A stretch of DNA of 64,000 nt. It comes from Candidatus Nitrospira nitrosa. GTDB taxonomy: Bacteria > Nitrospirota > Nitrospiria > Nitrospirales > Nitrospiraceae. Shown here piece by piece: positions 23,032-30,556 of the stretch; the stretch's first letter is position 1; each line of letters starts with the position of its first letter. The translations under genes and the position numbers were made by a program. Where the stretch lies: assembly GCF_001458735.1 (NCBI RefSeq), contig NZ_CZQA01000010.1, positions 1 to 64,000 on the forward strand, read 5' to 3'. The notes under the pieces were generated by a model, which saw nothing but the letters and a program-made list of their open reading frames with translations, ran no database searches and was not told where the DNA came from.

Positions 23032-23982
23032 CTACGGCATCCACAGGTACATAAACTGAGGAGTTCCCCCACGCACCAATGTGGCAAGGTCGAAATCTGC
23101 AAGGCCGGCAAGTCCGCTCGGAACGGCAAGTTTAGAATAGACGTTGTTCGAATACTCGCCTGGACGTTGGTACGTCACGACACGGGCTTCCGTCAGGCCG
23201 GCTCGTTTCTTCGCAACCTCAACGGCGTCTTCCAGGTAGCCGATCTCATCGACCAAACCGGCCTCCTTCGCTTGCTCCCCTGTATAGATGCGACCATCAG
23301 CCAGCCGCTTGATCTGGTCCATCTGTAAATTCGAACGGCCCTCCTGCACGATGGTCAAGAACCGTTGATAAAACGAATCGATCAGCCCTTGGAAGATGGC
23401 ACGCTCTTCGGTCGTCATGGTCCGAAACGGCGATCCCATGTCCTTCCGAGGGCCTGACGTGACCGCCGTCGCATCGACTCCTATTTTCTCGAGCAACCCT
23501 TTGGCATTCACCGTGAGCATGATGACACCGATACTCCCGGTGACGGATGACGGATGCGCCAATACCCGGTCGGCAGCGGCTGCAATGTAGTAGCCCCCCG
23601 AGGTCCCAAGATCCATGATGGAGGCAACAACGGGCACTTTACGATTGGCTTTGAATGTCTTCAACTCGTGATAAATGATATCCGAGGCCGTGACCGTTCC
23701 TCCAGGCGTGTTGATGCGCAACACGACGGCCTTGATCTGTTCATCCTTCGCGGCCCTAGTCAGTTGCTCCTTCACGTTTGCAATCATACTGGGCGTCGAT
23801 CTGAATCCATCTTTTTCCTGCGAGCTGATCATTCCCGATATCTCAACCAACAGCACCTTGGCCTTTCCGCTTCCGTCGACCTGCATTTCCTGTAACGGTC
23901 CAGGGCCGGGGAACAACGGGAAATTGAAGGTACAGCCGGACAGCAGAAGTCCGATCACCCCCACCACAATAGGATTACGCAT
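23032..23982 (-). CDS. sppA: Signal peptide peptidase SppA (lipoprotein form)
   Basis: Serine protease that degrades cleaved signal peptides at the membrane. 316 residues from the ATG at 23982 with GGAG upstream, overlapping the carA stop by 8 bases; the open frame further upstream is inside carA. N-terminal signal peptide with lipobox LLLSGC. S49 core: [18 protein letters not shown], the Lys of the Ser-Lys dyad in [10 protein letters not shown], and the nucleophile in [16 protein letters not shown]. Length is that of the short (67K-half) SppA form. Cotranscribed with carA and the M48 protease gene. Confidence 0.92.
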
Positions 23983-25147
23983 AATGGTTCTCCATACGCC
24001 GCACAAATTCACCGAACAAGTAGGCAGCATCGTGCGGTCCCGGTGCTGCCTCCGGATGGTATTGGACCGAAAAGACCGGATGTTCAAGTGAAGCCATACC
24101 TTCAACCGAGCAATCATTCAAACTGACATGGGTGATGGCAAGCCGTCCATATCGCGTCTGGATCACAGGCGAGACCGTTGGTACGTCAACCAGCATCGGC
24201 TGCGCCTGCACGGCAAAATTATGGTTCTGCGAAGTGATTTCAACTTTTCTGGTTCGAAGATCCATCACAGGGTGATTCGCTCCATGGTGGCCGAACTTCA
24301 ACTTATAGGTCTTGAGTCCGAATGCGAGGCCAAGAATCTGATGCCCCAAACAGATCCCGAAGATGGGATAGCGACCAATCAGCTGTTCAACCGCCTTCGC
24401 CGCATACGGAACACCCTCCGGGTCTCCCGGACCGTTTGAAAGAAAAATTCCGTGAGGCTTAAGCGCCTCAACGGCTTCGGCCGGCGTGGCGGCAGGGACC
24501 ACGGTCACATCACACCCGACATCAACCAGTCGTCTCAGAATGTTGTATTTGATGCCAAAATCATAGGCGACAACCCGCCAGCGTGCACCGCTTCCTATTG
24601 CGTCACTGTTCGGCCATGGTGCCCAGTCACCGGTCCCTGTCGTCCATTCAAATGGACGCGCACAGGTGACTTCGGCAGCAAGATCTCGTCCGACGATACC
24701 GGGTGCTTGTCTAGCTCGCCCAATCGCTCGTTCATGGTCGAGATCAAGGTGCGTGATACAACCTTGTTGCGACCCATGCTCGCGCAAATGTCTTGTCAAC
24801 GCCCTTGTATCGATCCCCTCAATGGCAACAACCTGAGTCTCTACCAAGGACTCGTGAAGCGTCTGTTTGCCGCGCCAGTTACTGAGCAATCGGCTCGCTT
24901 CATGTACGATAAACCCTTCAGCCCAAGCCCGACGAGACTCTACATCTTCCGGCGTCACGCCATAGTTCCCGATCTGTGGACAGGTCATGGTAATGATCTG
25001 TCCCTTGTAGGACGGATCACTCAAAATTTCCTGATAGCCGGTCATGGCCGTGTTAAACACGACTTCACCGACCGTTTCACCCTCGTAACCAAGCGCACGA
25101 CCTTCAAACACCGTCCCGTCTGCCAATGCCAATACTGCCTTTTTCAC
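23975..25147 (-). CDS. carA: Carbamoyl-phosphate synthase small subunit CarA
   Basis: Glutaminase subunit that delivers ammonia to CarB. 390 residues. The N-terminal CPSase domain starts [19 protein letters not shown] with [17 protein letters not shown]; the C-terminal amidotransferase domain has the nucleophile Cys in [15 protein letters not shown] and the His/Glu pair in [11 protein letters not shown]. The start overlaps the stop of the DUF4149 gene (25144-25147, ATGA). Part of the pyrR-led operon, so probably under PyrR attenuation. Confidence 0.98.
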
Positions 25148-25656
25148 GATTGTCTTCCGCCGTCGTCCATTACACGTTTTGCTCTGATCCCCATAAGCAG
25201 GAGACCCAATACCAGGTTGATCATATACAGCGATCGAATCGGCAACAGCACGTGGAAAAATGCCTCAAACGCTGCTTTCTTGGCTCCCTCATCCTTCGTC
25301 GCAAAGGCCTGCGTTTGAAGTGCTGCTGCCTCAGGATGCAATACCAGAATGATAACCCCTGCGATCACCACCATCATGATCACCACCAGAATCTCGCTCG
25401 CACTCACCATCACACGAGGCTCACCGCTCCACCATCGGCCTAACAAGGCCACAGCGAGAACGCCACCGGCTCCGATGACGAACCGATGATAGCCCTCAAA
25501 CGCACGTGTCAAAAACATCCCCCCGGAGTCTTGTCCTCCGAACGTATTGAATACCGCTGGGATCACTGCACCGCTCAGTACTATCATCCCCCCGACCCAC
25601 ACTGCGAGGGCAACTCCCTCGAGCGTGAGGCAACAGACCATCCCCCACCAGGGCAT
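25144..25656 (-). CDS. Four-helix membrane protein, DUF4149-like
   Basis: Integral membrane protein of about 170 residues with four hydrophobic segments (near residues 8-30, 60-80, 92-112 and 140-160). The pattern [15 protein letters not shown] and the [17 protein letters not shown] end resemble DUF4149-type proteins; the function is not known. The ATG at 25656 lies 13 bases after the pyrC stop; an upstream start at 25704 would overlap pyrC. It overlaps carA as ATGA. The pyr operon position suggests only co-expression. Confidence 0.7.
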
Positions 25657-25669
25657 CCGCCGCACGGCA

Positions 25670-26956
25670 CTACCGCTCCACAGGGCTGGCCTCGAATACC
25701 ACACGGCCGCCTACGATCGTGGTCTGTACTAGCCCTTTCACTTTCCATCCGACAAACGGCGTGTTTCGGCTCTTGGATCGGAATTTTGTCGGATCGACCT
25801 CCCACTGTTCATGCTGATCCACGATCACGACATCAGCGTCCGCGCCCACCCCCAATGTACCTTTTTTGAGGCCGAACGCGGCGGCCGGAGCAGAAGTCAG
25901 CTTCTGAACGGCTTGCTCGAGCGATAAGACCCCTTCCTCCACCAATCCCAACGTCAGCGAAAGCGCGGTCTCAAGTCCGACAATTCCGAATGGAGCCTCG
26001 GTAAAATCCTGCTGTTTTTCCTGAGTCGCATGGGGAGCATGATCCGTGGCGATCACATCAATTGTCCCATCACGCAACCCTTCCTTGATCGCCTGGACAT
26101 CGGTCCAGGTCCGCAAGGGCGGATTCATTTTGGCATGGGTGTTGTAACCGCGCACTAGGTCCTCGGTCAACGTGAAATGGTGCGGACAGGCCTCCGCTGT
26201 CACACGAATCCCACGGGCCTTTGCCTCCCGAACCATTCGCGCCGACCCGGCGGTGCTGATATGGGCCAGATGCAAACGAGCCCCCGTCAACTCAGACAGC
26301 GACAGATTGCGCGCCACCATCACATCTTCGGCTGCCGCAGGGATACCGGGCAATCCAAGCTCGGTGGAAATCAACCCCTCGTTCATGCAACCGCCTTCGG
26401 CGAGATGGAGATCCTCGCAGTGATCAACCACGGGTAGGTCAAACGCCGACGCATATTCCATCGCACGCCGCATCACCAAACTGTTCATCACGGGCTTTCC
26501 ATCATCCGAGATCGCCACGCAACCGGAACGGCGCAAGTCACCGATTTCGGCCAGTTCCTTCCCTTCGGATCCTTTGGTGATCGCACCGATCGGCAACACA
26601 TTCGCGAGACCGGCCAGCCGAGACCGTTCCAGAATAAACTCGGTCACGGCTTGATTGTCGTTCACCGGGCTTGTATTGGGCATACAGCAGACAGTCGTAA
26701 ATCCTCCTGCGACTGCTGCTGCGCTGCCGCTTTGAATGGTTTCTTTATATTCGAATCCTGGCTCTCGAAAATGCACGTGCAGGTCGACAAATCCAGGCAG
26801 AACCAACTTTCCTTCCGCCCGAATCGTCCGGCTGCCGACGGGAGCCGTCAGCTGGGGAGCGACCGCCGTGATTTTTCCGTCATCGATGAGCACATCGGCT
26901 ATTCCGACAAACCGACCTGGATCGATGACCCGACCACCTTTAATTAAAATCGACAC
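25670..26956 (-). CDS. pyrC: Dihydroorotase PyrC
   Basis: Closes carbamoyl aspartate to dihydroorotate. 428 residues, class I (PyrC of the long, AllB-like type). Metal site: DLHVHFREPG (HxH) near residue 60; substrate loop CMPNTSP; further His ligands in DHCEDL and LAHIS; the catalytic Asp in ATDHAPH. Follows pyrB by 118 bases in the operon. All ligands are present, so this is an active-type enzyme rather than the inactive PyrC' found beside some PyrB. Confidence 0.96.
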   Translation of the reverse strand: MSILIKGGRVIDPGRFVGIADVLIDDGKITAVAPQLTAPVGSRTIRAEGKLVLPGFVDLHVHFREPGFEYKETIQSGSAAAVAGGFTTVCCMPNTSPVNDNQAVTEFILERSRLAGLANVLPIGAITKGSEGKELAEIGDLRRSGCVAISDDGKPVMNSLVMRRAMEYASAFDLPVVDHCEDLHLAEGGCMNEGLISTELGLPGIPAAAEDVMVARNLSLSELTGARLHLAHISTAGSARMVREAKARGIRVTAEACPHHFTLTEDLVRGYNTHAKMNPPLRTWTDVQAIKEGLRDGTIDVIATDHAPHATQEKQQDFTEAPFGIVGLETALSLTLGLVEEGVLSLEQAVQKLTSAPAAAFGLKKGTLGVGADADVVIVDQHEQWEVDPTKFRSKSRNTPFVGWKVKGLVQTTIVGGRVVFEASPVER

Positions 26957-27074: not shown

Positions 27075-27998
27075 TCATGAATTGGTCCCGGACATGAGGT
27101 ACAAAATTCCCATCCGTACCGCCACCCCATTCGCAACTTGGTCCAAAATCACCGACGACAAACTATCAGCCACATCCGGGGCGATCTCCACACCTCGATT
27201 GATGGGGCCAGGATGCATGACGATGGCATCCGAGTCAGCCAGCCGTACACGCTCAGCGGTGAGTCCGTAGAGCCGCGAGTATTCTCTGATTGAAGGAAAC
27301 TGTGCGCGCCCTTGCCGCTCCAATTGAAGCCGCAGCATCATGATGACATTCACGTCGCGCAGACCTTCATCCATATTGGAATATACTTTCGCCCCCAGCT
27401 TTTCGACGCCCCAAGGCATCATCGTCGGAGGCCCCACGAGTCTGACCTCAGCCCCGAGTTTGACGAGCGCAAAGATATTCGAACGAGCAACCCGACTATG
27501 CGACACGTCGCCGACAATCGCCACCCGCAAGCCTCGAAAGTTCATTCCTCGTTGCCGAATCGTATAGAGATCAAGCAATGCTTGCGTGGGATGTTCGTGC
27601 CATCCATCGCCTGCATTGATGACAGACGACTTCACTCCCTGCGCCAACGCCTCGGCGGCTCCGGCCGAGGAATGCCGCAATACGATAATGTCGGCTTGCA
27701 TCGCTTCGATATTTCTCGCCGTATCGAGCAACGTTTCCCCCTTCACGACACTACTGGAAGAGGGTGCAAAGTTGATCACGTCGGCGCTCAGCCGCTTGGC
27801 TGCCAATTCGAAGGATGTCCGCGTCCTCGTACTTGGCTCGAAGAAGAGATTGACGACCGTCTTCCCTCTCAGGGCCGGCACTTTCTTGATTTCGCGCCCC
27901 GTCACTTCTTTAAAAGAATCGGCGGTATCGAGGATGAGGGTGATCTCATCGACCGCCAAGGGGGCGAGACTCAACAGATCTTTGCGCTTCACGCTCAT
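27075..27998 (-). CDS. pyrB: Aspartate carbamoyltransferase PyrB
   Basis: Transfers the carbamoyl group to aspartate. 307 residues from the ATG at 27998, which has GGAGGG upstream; longer starts would run into pyrR. Carbamoyl-phosphate site [13 protein letters not shown] near residue 50; [12 protein letters not shown] near 130; the aspartate site is in the C-terminal half ([19 protein letters not shown]). No pyrI regulatory subunit is nearby, as is usual where PyrR controls the operon. Confidence 0.97.
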
Positions 27999-28020: not shown

Positions 28021-28611
<591 letters not shown>

Positions 28612-28626
28612 TCACATTTCAGGCAT

Positions 28627-28658
28627 AAAAAAACCTCCCCACCACAAGAGTGAGAAGG
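28627..28658 (-). terminator. Attenuator terminator of the pyr leader
   Basis: On the minus strand CCTTCTCAC (28658-28650), a 7-base loop and GTGGGGAGG (28642-28634) form a 9-pair stem followed by seven T (28633-28627). The left arm can instead pair with GTGAGCAAGG (28712-28703), part of the PyrR-binding hairpin region, giving an antiterminator. The structures exclude each other, as in classical PyrR attenuation. Confidence 0.85.
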
Positions 28659-28706
28659 TCGACTGGAACGAACGTGCGCCGGAACATCACACATGATCAA
28701 CTCCTT

Positions 28707-28726
28707 GCTCACCTCACTGGATGAGC
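28707..28726 (-). promoter_or_regulatory. PyrR-binding hairpin (anti-antiterminator)
   Basis: The 20 bases fold into a 7-pair stem (GCTCATC / GGTGAGC, one T-G pair) with the hexaloop CAGTGA, which fits the known PyrR loop CNGNGA; the run ATCCAGTGAGGT matches the published binding consensus at nearly all positions. It lies about 10 bases after the likely transcription start. Confidence 0.85.
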
Positions 28727-28741
28727 ATTAAAGGTTTCGCT

Positions 28742-28770
28742 ATCCTACTGAGTCAACGATGCCCTGTCAA
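28742..28770 (-). promoter_or_regulatory. Promoter of the pyr operon
   Basis: Minus-strand TTGACA (28765-28770) and TAGGAT (28742-28747) with a 17-base spacer. Predicted start near 28735, just before the PyrR-binding hairpin, giving a leader of about 155 bases to the pyrR ATG. Confidence 0.75.
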
Positions 28771-28827
28771 GATTCGTCGCAACGGCACTCAAACTCGCTC
28801 TGCGCTCTATGAAAAGACGGTCAGGAC

Positions 28828-28857
28828 GTACGTTGCCCCATGCGACAGGCAACGTGC
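28828..28857. terminator. Hairpin downstream of the CorA-like gene
   Basis: GTACGTTGCC and GGCAACGTGC pair over 10 positions (one wobble) with a 10-base loop. It lies 52 bases beyond the stop codon of the CorA-like gene and upstream of the pyr promoter, without a strong T run, so termination is plausible but not sure. Confidence 0.45.
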
Positions 28858-28909
28858 TGAGGTCTGGCCGGGAAGACTGTCCACTGAAGAGATGAGGGTT
28901 GTCGGTCGA

Positions 28910-30556
28910 CTACGAATCCCGTCCCTGTTTGCTCCGCCATACCGTCAGCAACGCCGCGAGTTTGTCTTTGGACGAACGATGCTCCTCAGCTAAGGTTTCC
29001 AAAAAATCTGAAAGTCGCCTTGCCTTCAAGACCGTATAGAGCGTGACAATGATGACGGGTATCAGCACTACGAGAAAATATCCGATGCGCTTGGTCGACG
29101 GTTCCGCACCCAAGTCGAAGAGGTTCATACCCAATACCCCGGTTGTTGCAACACCGATCAAGCCGACAGTCGCCACCACCGTCAGGCGAACCATCGTTTC
29201 TCCTTGGCGACGGAGCGCATCGCTATCGAGGTATTGGCTCATATCTTCCAACTCCGAACGGAGCTCGTCGTAGAGTCGACCGGTGCCTAATTGTTCGCTG
29301 ACCATCCGATAGAGTTCCTTCACCTGCCCATGATCGGACACCTGATGGGACCAGTAGCGATGGGTAAACCGCAGAAAGATACCGAGTGTTTGGCGAATCA
29401 CTCGACGAAACTGCCGGACGGAGTCCAACTTGGTGAGATCAAGCTGATGCATCGCCTCAACAAGACGATTCGTCAGCATCAACAGGGCCGCCTTATGAAA
29501 ATGCGGGACCAGAAACAATAAAAAATATTCATGCCGGAATTGTTCTAAATTTGTTTTACGATCTTCGAACGCCGGTTCTCCTGCTTCCCCCACCATCGTA
29601 AACACCCGGCCTGTACACATAAAACGGGCGCCTGGTGAACCTGGCCCTTGGCCGTTCCAATACCGGTCATAGCAATGGTGTTCTTCAAAGTTACGGAGAT
29701 AGCGTTCCGAAAACGGCAACGTATCAGAGCTACCCGGTGCCGCCGCCAAACCTATTCGTGCGAACTCCCCCCGCGTCAGTGCGCCAGGATCGTCCAGACT
29801 CAGATACGCCATGACCGGCATCAAGTGGTATTCAAGCTGGCGATACCGAATCAGACCGGCTTTCTCTGAATGGTGCAACACCAATGGTTCCAGCAGAAAC
29901 TCCCAGTGGGAGGCAAGACTCAACGACCGATGCTGGCAGACAAACGAGAGATATTTCTCACGGTGATCATAATCTGAGACCGCCAGCACCGTACCATCTG
30001 AGGACAACCACTCTACCTGCTTGGGACAATGGCCACCGTGCCCGTCACGCTCCCAGTAGGTGGGATAGCATCGGCCGAAGCGAAAGAGTGAATTCTGCAC
30101 CTGCTCAAGCGGTACATCATTGTCATAGATCTCGACGACCAAAATCGCCACATCGATGTCGTAGAAAAAGTACAAATCCACATGGGCCACTGTAAAGGTC
30201 GCAGGAGTCCCGTGAGGGCCAGGGAAGACCATCCGCACTTTCGCAATATCATTGCGACGAAAAACGCGGATCGCGGCCCCCTCGCGAACTTCAGCGCTCG
30301 TTCGCTTCCCCTCGCCGTAGAGAAACCGCTGAACGTAGGGCAAAAATGTCACAAACTCACTGTAATGTCGTTCCTGGAACTGCCGAGGATCACCCGTAAA
30401 CTCGTCCAGCACCTCTCGCCACGGGTTGTCCGGATTGGTCGCCTGGAGAAGTTCCCAATGCTTTTGGATCGGCGCGTCCTCCCGGATGGGAGTAAGCTGC
30501 ATTGGCCACAGCAGGATTTGTCGGAAATGTCGAACAACCGTTTGAGAGTCAGCCAC
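28910..30556 (-). CDS. Large CorA-like membrane protein with GMN motif
   Basis: 548 residues. The C-terminal part looks like CorA-type metal-ion channels: a long helix region (about 380-470), a first membrane segment TVVATVGLIGVATTGVLG ending directly in GMNLF (the GMN ion-selectivity motif), a short loop, and a second segment YFLVVLIPVIIVTLYTVL; a basic and acidic tail follows. The roughly 400-residue N-terminal cytoplasmic part is much longer than in standard CorA (about 240) and I do not recognise it further. Mg2+ or other divalent-ion transport is the likely role by motif, not proven. Monocistronic, minus strand. Confidence 0.7.
   Translation of the reverse strand: MADSQTVVRHFRQILLWPMQLTPIREDAPIQKHWELLQATNPDNPWREVLDEFTGDPRQFQERHYSEFVTFLPYVQRFLYGEGKRTSAEVREGAAIRVFRRNDIAKVRMVFPGPHGTPATFTVAHVDLYFFYDIDVAILVVEIYDNDVPLEQVQNSLFRFGRCYPTYWERDGHGGHCPKQVEWLSSDGTVLAVSDYDHREKYLSFVCQHRSLSLASHWEFLLEPLVLHHSEKAGLIRYRQLEYHLMPVMAYLSLDDPGALTRGEFARIGLAAAPGSSDTLPFSERYLRNFEEHHCYDRYWNGQGPGSPGARFMCTGRVFTMVGEAGEPAFEDRKTNLEQFRHEYFLLFLVPHFHKAALLMLTNRLVEAMHQLDLTKLDSVRQFRRVIRQTLGIFLRFTHRYWSHQVSDHGQVKELYRMVSEQLGTGRLYDELRSELEDMSQYLDSDALRRQGETMVRLTVVATVGLIGVATTGVLGMNLFDLGAEPSTKRIGYFLVVLIPVIIVTLYTVLKARRLSDFLETLAEEHRSSKDKLAALLTVWRSKQGRDS

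Follow-up and report, generated by a model that had tools for sequence, protein, structure and literature searches.

A leader open reading frame behind the PyrR hairpin suggests ribosome-gated attenuation of the pyrR operon in Nitrospirota

The window analyzed here is a stretch of 64,000 nucleotides from Candidatus Nitrospira nitrosa (contig NZ_CZQA01000010.1, positions 1 to 64,000). On its minus strand, it carries a pyr operon that begins with pyrR, and the leader ahead of pyrR contains a promoter, a PyrR-type hairpin, a short open reading frame (ORF), and an intrinsic terminator (Table 1). The pyrR product was identified as PyrR by an equivalog match above the cut-off, and the best 11 PDB sequences, with scores of up to 234 bits, are all natural, ancestral, or engineered PyrR. 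The window PyrR also has a 15-residue stretch in common with its nearest PDB structures; residues in this stretch touch RNA in Bacillus. Its closest relatives among the named genomes found are from Nitrospira, the best being a Nitrospira MAG with 98% identity. PyrR is widespread in the phylum, found at E ≤ 1e-20 in 102 of 109 Nitrospirota genomes. Two genomes, G006 (C207:9586-10104) and G025 (C108:2299-2817), have a second, weaker PyrR-like match inside a frame of >400 codons (129 and 126.5 bits, respectively; cut-off 138). In the window, the gene upstream of the leader on the same strand (28910-30556, minus) encodes 548 residues with a weak CorA-like match (23.7 bits, cut-off 27).

Table 1. 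Leader elements and genes of the pyrR operon in the window, in the direction of transcription
Feature	Position	Strand	Description
Sigma-70-type promoter	28742..28770	minus	TTGACA at 28770-28765, 17-nt spacer, TAGGAT at 28747-28742; 10/12
PyrR-type hairpin	28703..28734	minus	5' arm CCUUUAA, upper stem, loop CAGUGA at 28719-28714, 3' arm ending AAGG; RF00515 and covariation
Shine-Dalgarno of leader ORF	28701..28706	minus	AAGGAG; the AAGG part forms the 3' side of the lower PyrR stem
Leader ORF	28575..28694	minus	ATG, 39 codons plus TGA; crosses the terminator; TGA overlaps the pyrR ATG (ATGA)
Intrinsic terminator	28627..28660	minus	Stem 28660-28632 (12 pairs, 5 G-C), U7 run 28633-28627
pyrR	28021..28578	minus	185 aa; NF003549, 244 bits, cut-off 138 (ORF from 28590 scored)
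pyrB, aspartate carbamoyltransferase	27075..27998	minus	NF002032, 410.8 bits; start taken as the Met before the matched domain
pyrC, dihydroorotase	25670..26956	minus	TIGR00857, 438.7 bits
DUF4149 protein, between pyrC and carA	25144..25704	minus	PF13664, 29.6 bits, cut-off 24.6
carA, carbamoyl-phosphate synthase small subunit	23975..25147	minus	TIGR01368, 476.7 bits

The promoter is the sole promoter-like site in positions 28550-28960, where shuffles give 0.2 expected, and it would place the RNA start at about 28735, just ahead of the hairpin. Among 168 leaders, 119 have a promoter-like site, which in 92 of these lies 7 nt upstream of the hairpin (shuffled upstream sequence: mean 18, max 27). 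Single-sequence folding of the window leader gives a modest signal (z -1.99). An earlier note on this DNA, made from the sequence alone, had described the order promoter, hairpin, terminator; the order and the coordinates were right, with all parts on the minus strand. Its terminator with seven T is borne out by the U7 run behind the 12-pair stem, and its CAGTGA loop also stands, but the hairpin that it drew with 7 pairs has a predicted upper stem of 8 pairs. The leader ORF had been overlooked.

The earlier note had suggested a search with the Rfam PyrR-element model (RF00515). In a 601-base search, the window leader aligns with this model from end to end, hairpin and terminator included (28738-28625, model positions 1-115 of 115, 49.3 bits, E 9.2e-6). 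The score falls short of the gathering cut-off of 54 bits, so the leader is missed when the window is scanned at cut-off; indeed, the Rfam scan of the window at curated cut-offs returned two tRNAs only. Five further weak Rfam matches in the region were set aside, each being below its own cut-off (E 1.1 to 8.4). In the whole genome (4.4 million bases), the window leader is the sole RF00515 match at E ≤ 1. Across the phylum, RF00515 matches at E ≤ 0.01 in 293 of 395 Nitrospirota genomes, 55 of them with a match above the cut-off. The Rfam cut-off thus misses most Nitrospirota leaders: in 238 of the 293 genomes, no match exceeds it. The claim that such a leader lies outside the Firmicutes is true, and true phylum-wide, but it is not unique to this phylum, as Thermus composti also matches among the 14 named control genomes (Thermotoga maritima and Bacteroides ihuae match at E ≤ 1 only). 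At the 80 PyrR loci of named genomes, the CCNGNGAGG loop motif is found upstream of pyrR in 79, and the one exception (L088) is cut by a contig end. Sun and others (2013; PMC3766115) give 211 pyrR sites, with 255 genomes studied; the word Nitrospir is absent from the main text of that paper. In the open-licence literature searched, we found no titles that deal with attenuation by PyrR in Nitrospirota or with leader peptides of PyrR leaders.

For comparative analysis, we used a sample of 182 leader records, made up of the window, 30 and 71 places with Rfam matches, and 80 PyrR loci. The 101 places are the better-scoring Rfam matches, while the PyrR loci, chosen by protein similarity, are the best 80 of 132; leaders far from both are therefore under-represented. 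We parsed 177 of the 182 records, the others being L117, L161, L167, L168, and L088, whose contig begins just ahead of pyrR. Removal of 8 leaders that were identical from the last 25 hairpin bases to the U run left 169 distinct leaders. A further set of 63 divergent leaders was obtained by dropping spacers whose alignment score to a retained one was more than half their length.

In these 63 divergent leaders, the five pairs adjoining the loop have 98.7% standard cells, compared with 78.7% (max 83.2%) when the 3' letters are shuffled, a shuffle that ignores the relatedness of the leaders. Several pair types (C-G, U-A, A-U, and G-C) occur at one position. The upper hairpin thus covaries, with the compensatory changes that the earlier note had proposed to look for in related Nitrospirota. 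The hairpin also has the CNGNGA loop and the CCUU/AAGG lower stem of a PyrR-binding hairpin; however, the search pattern itself prescribed the loop, the arm ends, and the lower stem, which are thus no independent test; the independent support comes from the upper-stem covariation and Rfam. Altogether, Rfam, covariation, and phylum-wide conservation support the proposal that promoter, PyrR hairpin, and terminator form a PyrR-controlled leader.

The hairpin closes with AAGG at the end of its 3' arm, extended to AAGGAG in 93 of the 169 leaders, and a start codon follows. We searched for ORFs by one fixed rule: a Shine-Dalgarno-like word in or beside the 3' arm, followed 3-12 nt on by ATG, GTG, or TTG. 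By this rule, 163 of the 169 distinct Nitrospirota leaders, the window included, have a leader ORF (117 start with ATG, 37 with GTG, and 9 with TTG). These ORFs are present in 25 of the 27 Nitrospirota families that could be assigned (90 of the 169 leaders were assigned). Six leaders have no ORF by the rule, and one further region, L205 of family f29, has a hairpin and no leader ORF. The frame of the ORF is open to within 15 nt of the terminator stem in all 163 leaders, compared with 47 and 137 for the other two frames, and it reaches the stem itself in 149 (other frames: 35 and 82). The median distance from start codon to stem is 35 nt; 14 of the ORFs end within 15 nt before the stem, 37 inside the stem-loop, and 112 beyond it. 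The footprint of a ribosome extends about 15 nt downstream of the decoding site, and ribosomes translating these ORFs would occupy the terminator's left arm.

The pattern holds in the divergent set, where 58 of the 63 leaders have the ORF and the frame is open in 58 of 58 (other frames: 24 and 42). When the spacers of the 63 leaders were dinucleotide-shuffled (300 rounds), on average 33.3 had a start, and 26.8 (at most 37) had a start together with an open frame. Frame +2, too, is frequently open (137 of 163), and about 80% of the shuffled spacers with a start are open (26.8 of 33.3), and thus the placed start codon carries much of the signal.

The peptide, by comparison, is not conserved. Over 36 independent pairs, substitutions numbered 60 at the first, 59 at the second, and 49 at the third codon position, which is no third-position excess; the ORFs range from 3 to 99 codons in length, and all three frames are used across the terminator (49, 70, and 44). 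This suggests that translation itself, not its product, matters. The comparison supports an open frame only and not selection for peptide coding. That the ORF encodes a functional small protein, in a leader that is otherwise ordinary, is accordingly very improbable given the substitution counts, the spread of lengths, and the three frames, even though some groups, e.g. L102 and L104 with MITC-GKSCP, have a recognizable peptide. The MITC-GKSCP-like pattern is shared by the leader peptides of L100, L102, L104-L107, and L109-L111, a lineage in which these ORFs end either within the terminator stem or shortly ahead of it.

In textbooks, PyrR leaders exemplify attenuation by RNA refolding, and in the Bacillus model the antiterminator is expected to win without PyrR. 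The earlier note likewise held that three mutually exclusive structures, among them an antiterminator, can be drawn here. They can indeed be drawn, as GUGAG-C-AAGG is complementary to CCUUCUCAC, but the antiterminator is predicted not to compete with the upper hairpin. To compare the two structures at the time when an antiterminator has to win, we folded every leader truncated halfway through the terminator loop. The upper PyrR stem of the window then has 7.24 expected pairs versus 0.28 for the antiterminator. The hairpin wins in 133 of the 169 leaders (49 of the 63 divergent ones), and the antiterminator has at least as many pairs as the upper stem in the other 36. Four of the five Firmicutes controls behaved in the opposite way: the antiterminator wins in three out of three leaders from Bacillus velezensis and in one from Lactobacillus, while a Paenibacillus leader is undecided (4.2 versus 3.61). 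The control loci gave six Rfam matches, of which five were folded (L184 has no terminator by eye and was left out; L187 and L188 have no match). This suggests that the folding calculation can tell hairpin leaders from antiterminator leaders, bearing in mind that five controls are few.

A second helix, in which the Shine-Dalgarno region pairs with the terminator's left arm, is predicted with 4.85 expected pairs in the window and a median of 2.38 over the 169 leaders. This helix spares the upper stem but is in competition with the lower one, so antitermination by RNA alone may contribute. When looser helix definitions are used, the hairpin probability is below 0.5 in 44 of the 169 leaders and antiterminator pairs outnumber hairpin pairs in 55, which is less favorable to a role of the ribosome; these counts do not separate upper and lower stem and are thus superseded. 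Among the 163 leaders with an ORF, 34 are predicted to favor the antiterminator over the upper stem. We considered whether an antiterminator replaces the ORF in the ORF-less leaders and rejected this idea (2 of 6 versus 34 of 163, p 0.61).

Family f15 provides natural variants of the left arm. In L003, L005, and L014, the left arm of the terminator begins with AAACCCAG and not with CCUU as is usual, which removes the antiterminator pairing, yet these three of the five f15 leaders retain the ORF; in the other two, L002 and L006, the left arm has ACCUCCUG. This speaks against a Bacillus-type attenuator, in which the left arm would pair with the 3' arm of the hairpin without PyrR, PyrR would break this antiterminator, and the ORF would be incidental. 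An incidental ORF also fails to explain the 58 of 63 placed starts and the 58 of 58 open frames, and the window fold is the opposite of the B. velezensis and Lactobacillus folds. Against these stand the complementarity in the window, the CCUUC-type left arms that are common by eye in the leaders inspected, the Shine-Dalgarno/left-arm helix, and the 36 leaders in which the antiterminator equals or exceeds the upper stem, and we regard such an attenuator as quite unlikely on balance. Thus, the Bacillus-style antiterminator finds no support as the main switch, and what is conserved instead is an ORF that overlaps the terminator. The earlier interpretation was right on PyrR control, while its switch was probably wrong or at least incomplete.

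Both devices could also work together, with a weak Shine-Dalgarno/left-arm antiterminator setting a base line and the ribosome doing most of the antitermination. The expected pairs with the left arm, in the window and in the median leader, speak for such an arrangement; however, the helix would itself hide the Shine-Dalgarno, and its extension beyond AAGG:CCUU is not kept, by eye, in the close relative L032. We think this combination is unlikely, though conceivable, and as it overlaps with control by a ribosome-gated attenuator, the likelihoods of the two are not additive.

The end of the leader ORF suggests a further link to pyrR. In the window, no Shine-Dalgarno-like tetramer is found 4-18 nt before the pyrR ATG, which the stop codon of the ORF overlaps. 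We placed pyrR in 146 of the 163 leaders, leaving out 17 without a located pyrR motif, and in these 146, 99 ORFs pass the terminator. Of those, 38 overlap a possible pyrR start (ATGA, GTGA, TGATG, or similar), compared with 16 of 222 other-frame stops (p 4e-11, uncorrected for kinship), and 83 end no more than 20 nt from a possible pyrR start, compared with 89 of 222 (p 1e-13, likewise uncorrected for kinship). The overlapped pyrR start is without a Shine-Dalgarno-like tetramer in 28 of the 38, including the window. By comparison, these 38 leader ORFs themselves have 4-6-base matches to AAGGAGGU; 4 of the bases are given by the search pattern, and 6 are reached in 25 of the 38.

We also read 20 further upstream regions, mainly from families with few or no Rfam matches, and the hairpin was visible in 14 and not in 6. 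Families f14 and f22 have PyrR and few of the Rfam matches listed; all 10 of their regions that we read have the hairpin, and by eye, no terminator was seen in these 10. In six of them (all four from f14 and two of six from f22), an ORF begins 7-10 nt behind the hairpin and continues into the PyrR motif, its Shine-Dalgarno lying within the hairpin arm. The remaining four, all from f22, have a short ORF (23 to 57 codons) behind the hairpin that ends on ATGA or TGATG, and from its position, the start overlapped there would be that of pyrR. Among the ten regions of other families, four have the hairpin: L206 and L208 have a terminator and an ORF as well, L204 (f29) has an unclear ORF, and the fourth is the f29 region with no leader ORF mentioned above. 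No PyrR hairpin was seen in the fetched upstream bases of L199-L202 (f28), L203 (f27), and L207 (f31), although PyrR is present; these families may keep the regulator without its usual site, or the site may lie elsewhere. Thus, most of the hairpin-bearing variants have a Shine-Dalgarno and start codon behind the hairpin, while the terminator comes and goes. This constancy of the Shine-Dalgarno and start, set against a variable terminator, is the best argument that PyrR acts first on translation initiation.

The Firmicutes controls show that the ORF is not split by phylum. By our rule, four of the five have no leader ORF (0 of 3 in B. velezensis, and none in Lactobacillus), but Paenibacillus cellulosilyticus also has one, and the ribosome-gated plan may therefore occur in Firmicutes too. 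In this leader (L185, 2292-2474), the PyrR hairpin is followed by a frame of 60 codons with a GTG start, which extends past the terminator and ends next to the pyrR Shine-Dalgarno; in the other two frames, stops occur after 0 and 25 codons.

In all, the leader is probably best explained as a PyrR-controlled, ribosome-gated attenuator. Transcription would begin at the hairpin. With pyrimidines in good supply, PyrR (together with UMP, if it acts as in Bacillus) would hold the hairpin that contains the AAGG of the ORF's Shine-Dalgarno; the leader ORF would then stay untranslated, the terminator would fold, and transcription would stop ahead of pyrR. When pyrimidines are scarce, PyrR would release the hairpin, a ribosome would start on the leader ORF and move over the left arm of the terminator, and RNA polymerase would read through. 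On reaching the ATGA where the leader ORF ends and pyrR begins, the ribosome would finish translation of the ORF and reinitiate on pyrR, which lacks a separate Shine-Dalgarno. More broadly, we are inclined to see Nitrospirota PyrR as basically a repressor of translation initiation, to which the leader ORF would add control of transcription, through readthrough of the terminator, and of pyrR translation, through the overlap of stop and start; across lineages, the output would have been exchanged among terminator, coupled ORF, and pyrR itself, with hairpin and Shine-Dalgarno kept constant. If this is true, the PyrR protein and its hairpin are coupled, in a large and environmentally important group of bacteria, to a different device, namely the ribosome; with several outputs present within one phylum, one could trace how a single RNA-binding protein passes between control of transcription and control of translation.

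The window leader can be compared with four known systems. Like the Bacillus pyr attenuators (RF00515), it has pyrR in the operon, a hairpin with a CNGNGA loop, and a terminator ahead of pyrR. Unlike them, it has a leader ORF with its Shine-Dalgarno in the hairpin, and its antiterminator is not predicted to beat the upper stem; its genome also has one RF00515 match, compared with three in the B. velezensis stretch L183. For Thermus strain ZO5, where the gene order is said to be pyrR-pyrB-(extra gene)-pyrC, Van de Casteele and others reportedly proposed in 1997 that PyrR attenuation works via a ribosome on a leader ORF and not via an antiterminator. An ORF with its Shine-Dalgarno in or beside the hairpin and a frame open to the terminator is what we found in 163 of 169 leaders, including the window. 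If the Thermus proposal is as reported, the Nitrospirota leaders would represent the same idea, as far as the described mechanism goes, and add broad comparative support, stop-start coupling, and terminator-less variants to it. To our knowledge, neither the stop-start overlap with pyrR nor the terminator-less variants are known from Thermus strain ZO5.

In Mycobacterium, PyrR represses translation of the pyr genes, and the hairpin adjoins the Shine-Dalgarno. This plan resembles the six regions, four from f14 and two from f22, in which pyrR immediately follows the hairpin; the window differs in having a leader ORF and a terminator between hairpin and pyrR. In Escherichia coli pyrBI, a leader ORF overlaps the terminator and its translation gives readthrough, the signal being UTP-dependent pausing of RNA polymerase without PyrR. 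The readthrough proposed for the window leader would likewise come from a translated leader ORF over the terminator, but here, unlike in pyrBI, it would be PyrR that is involved.
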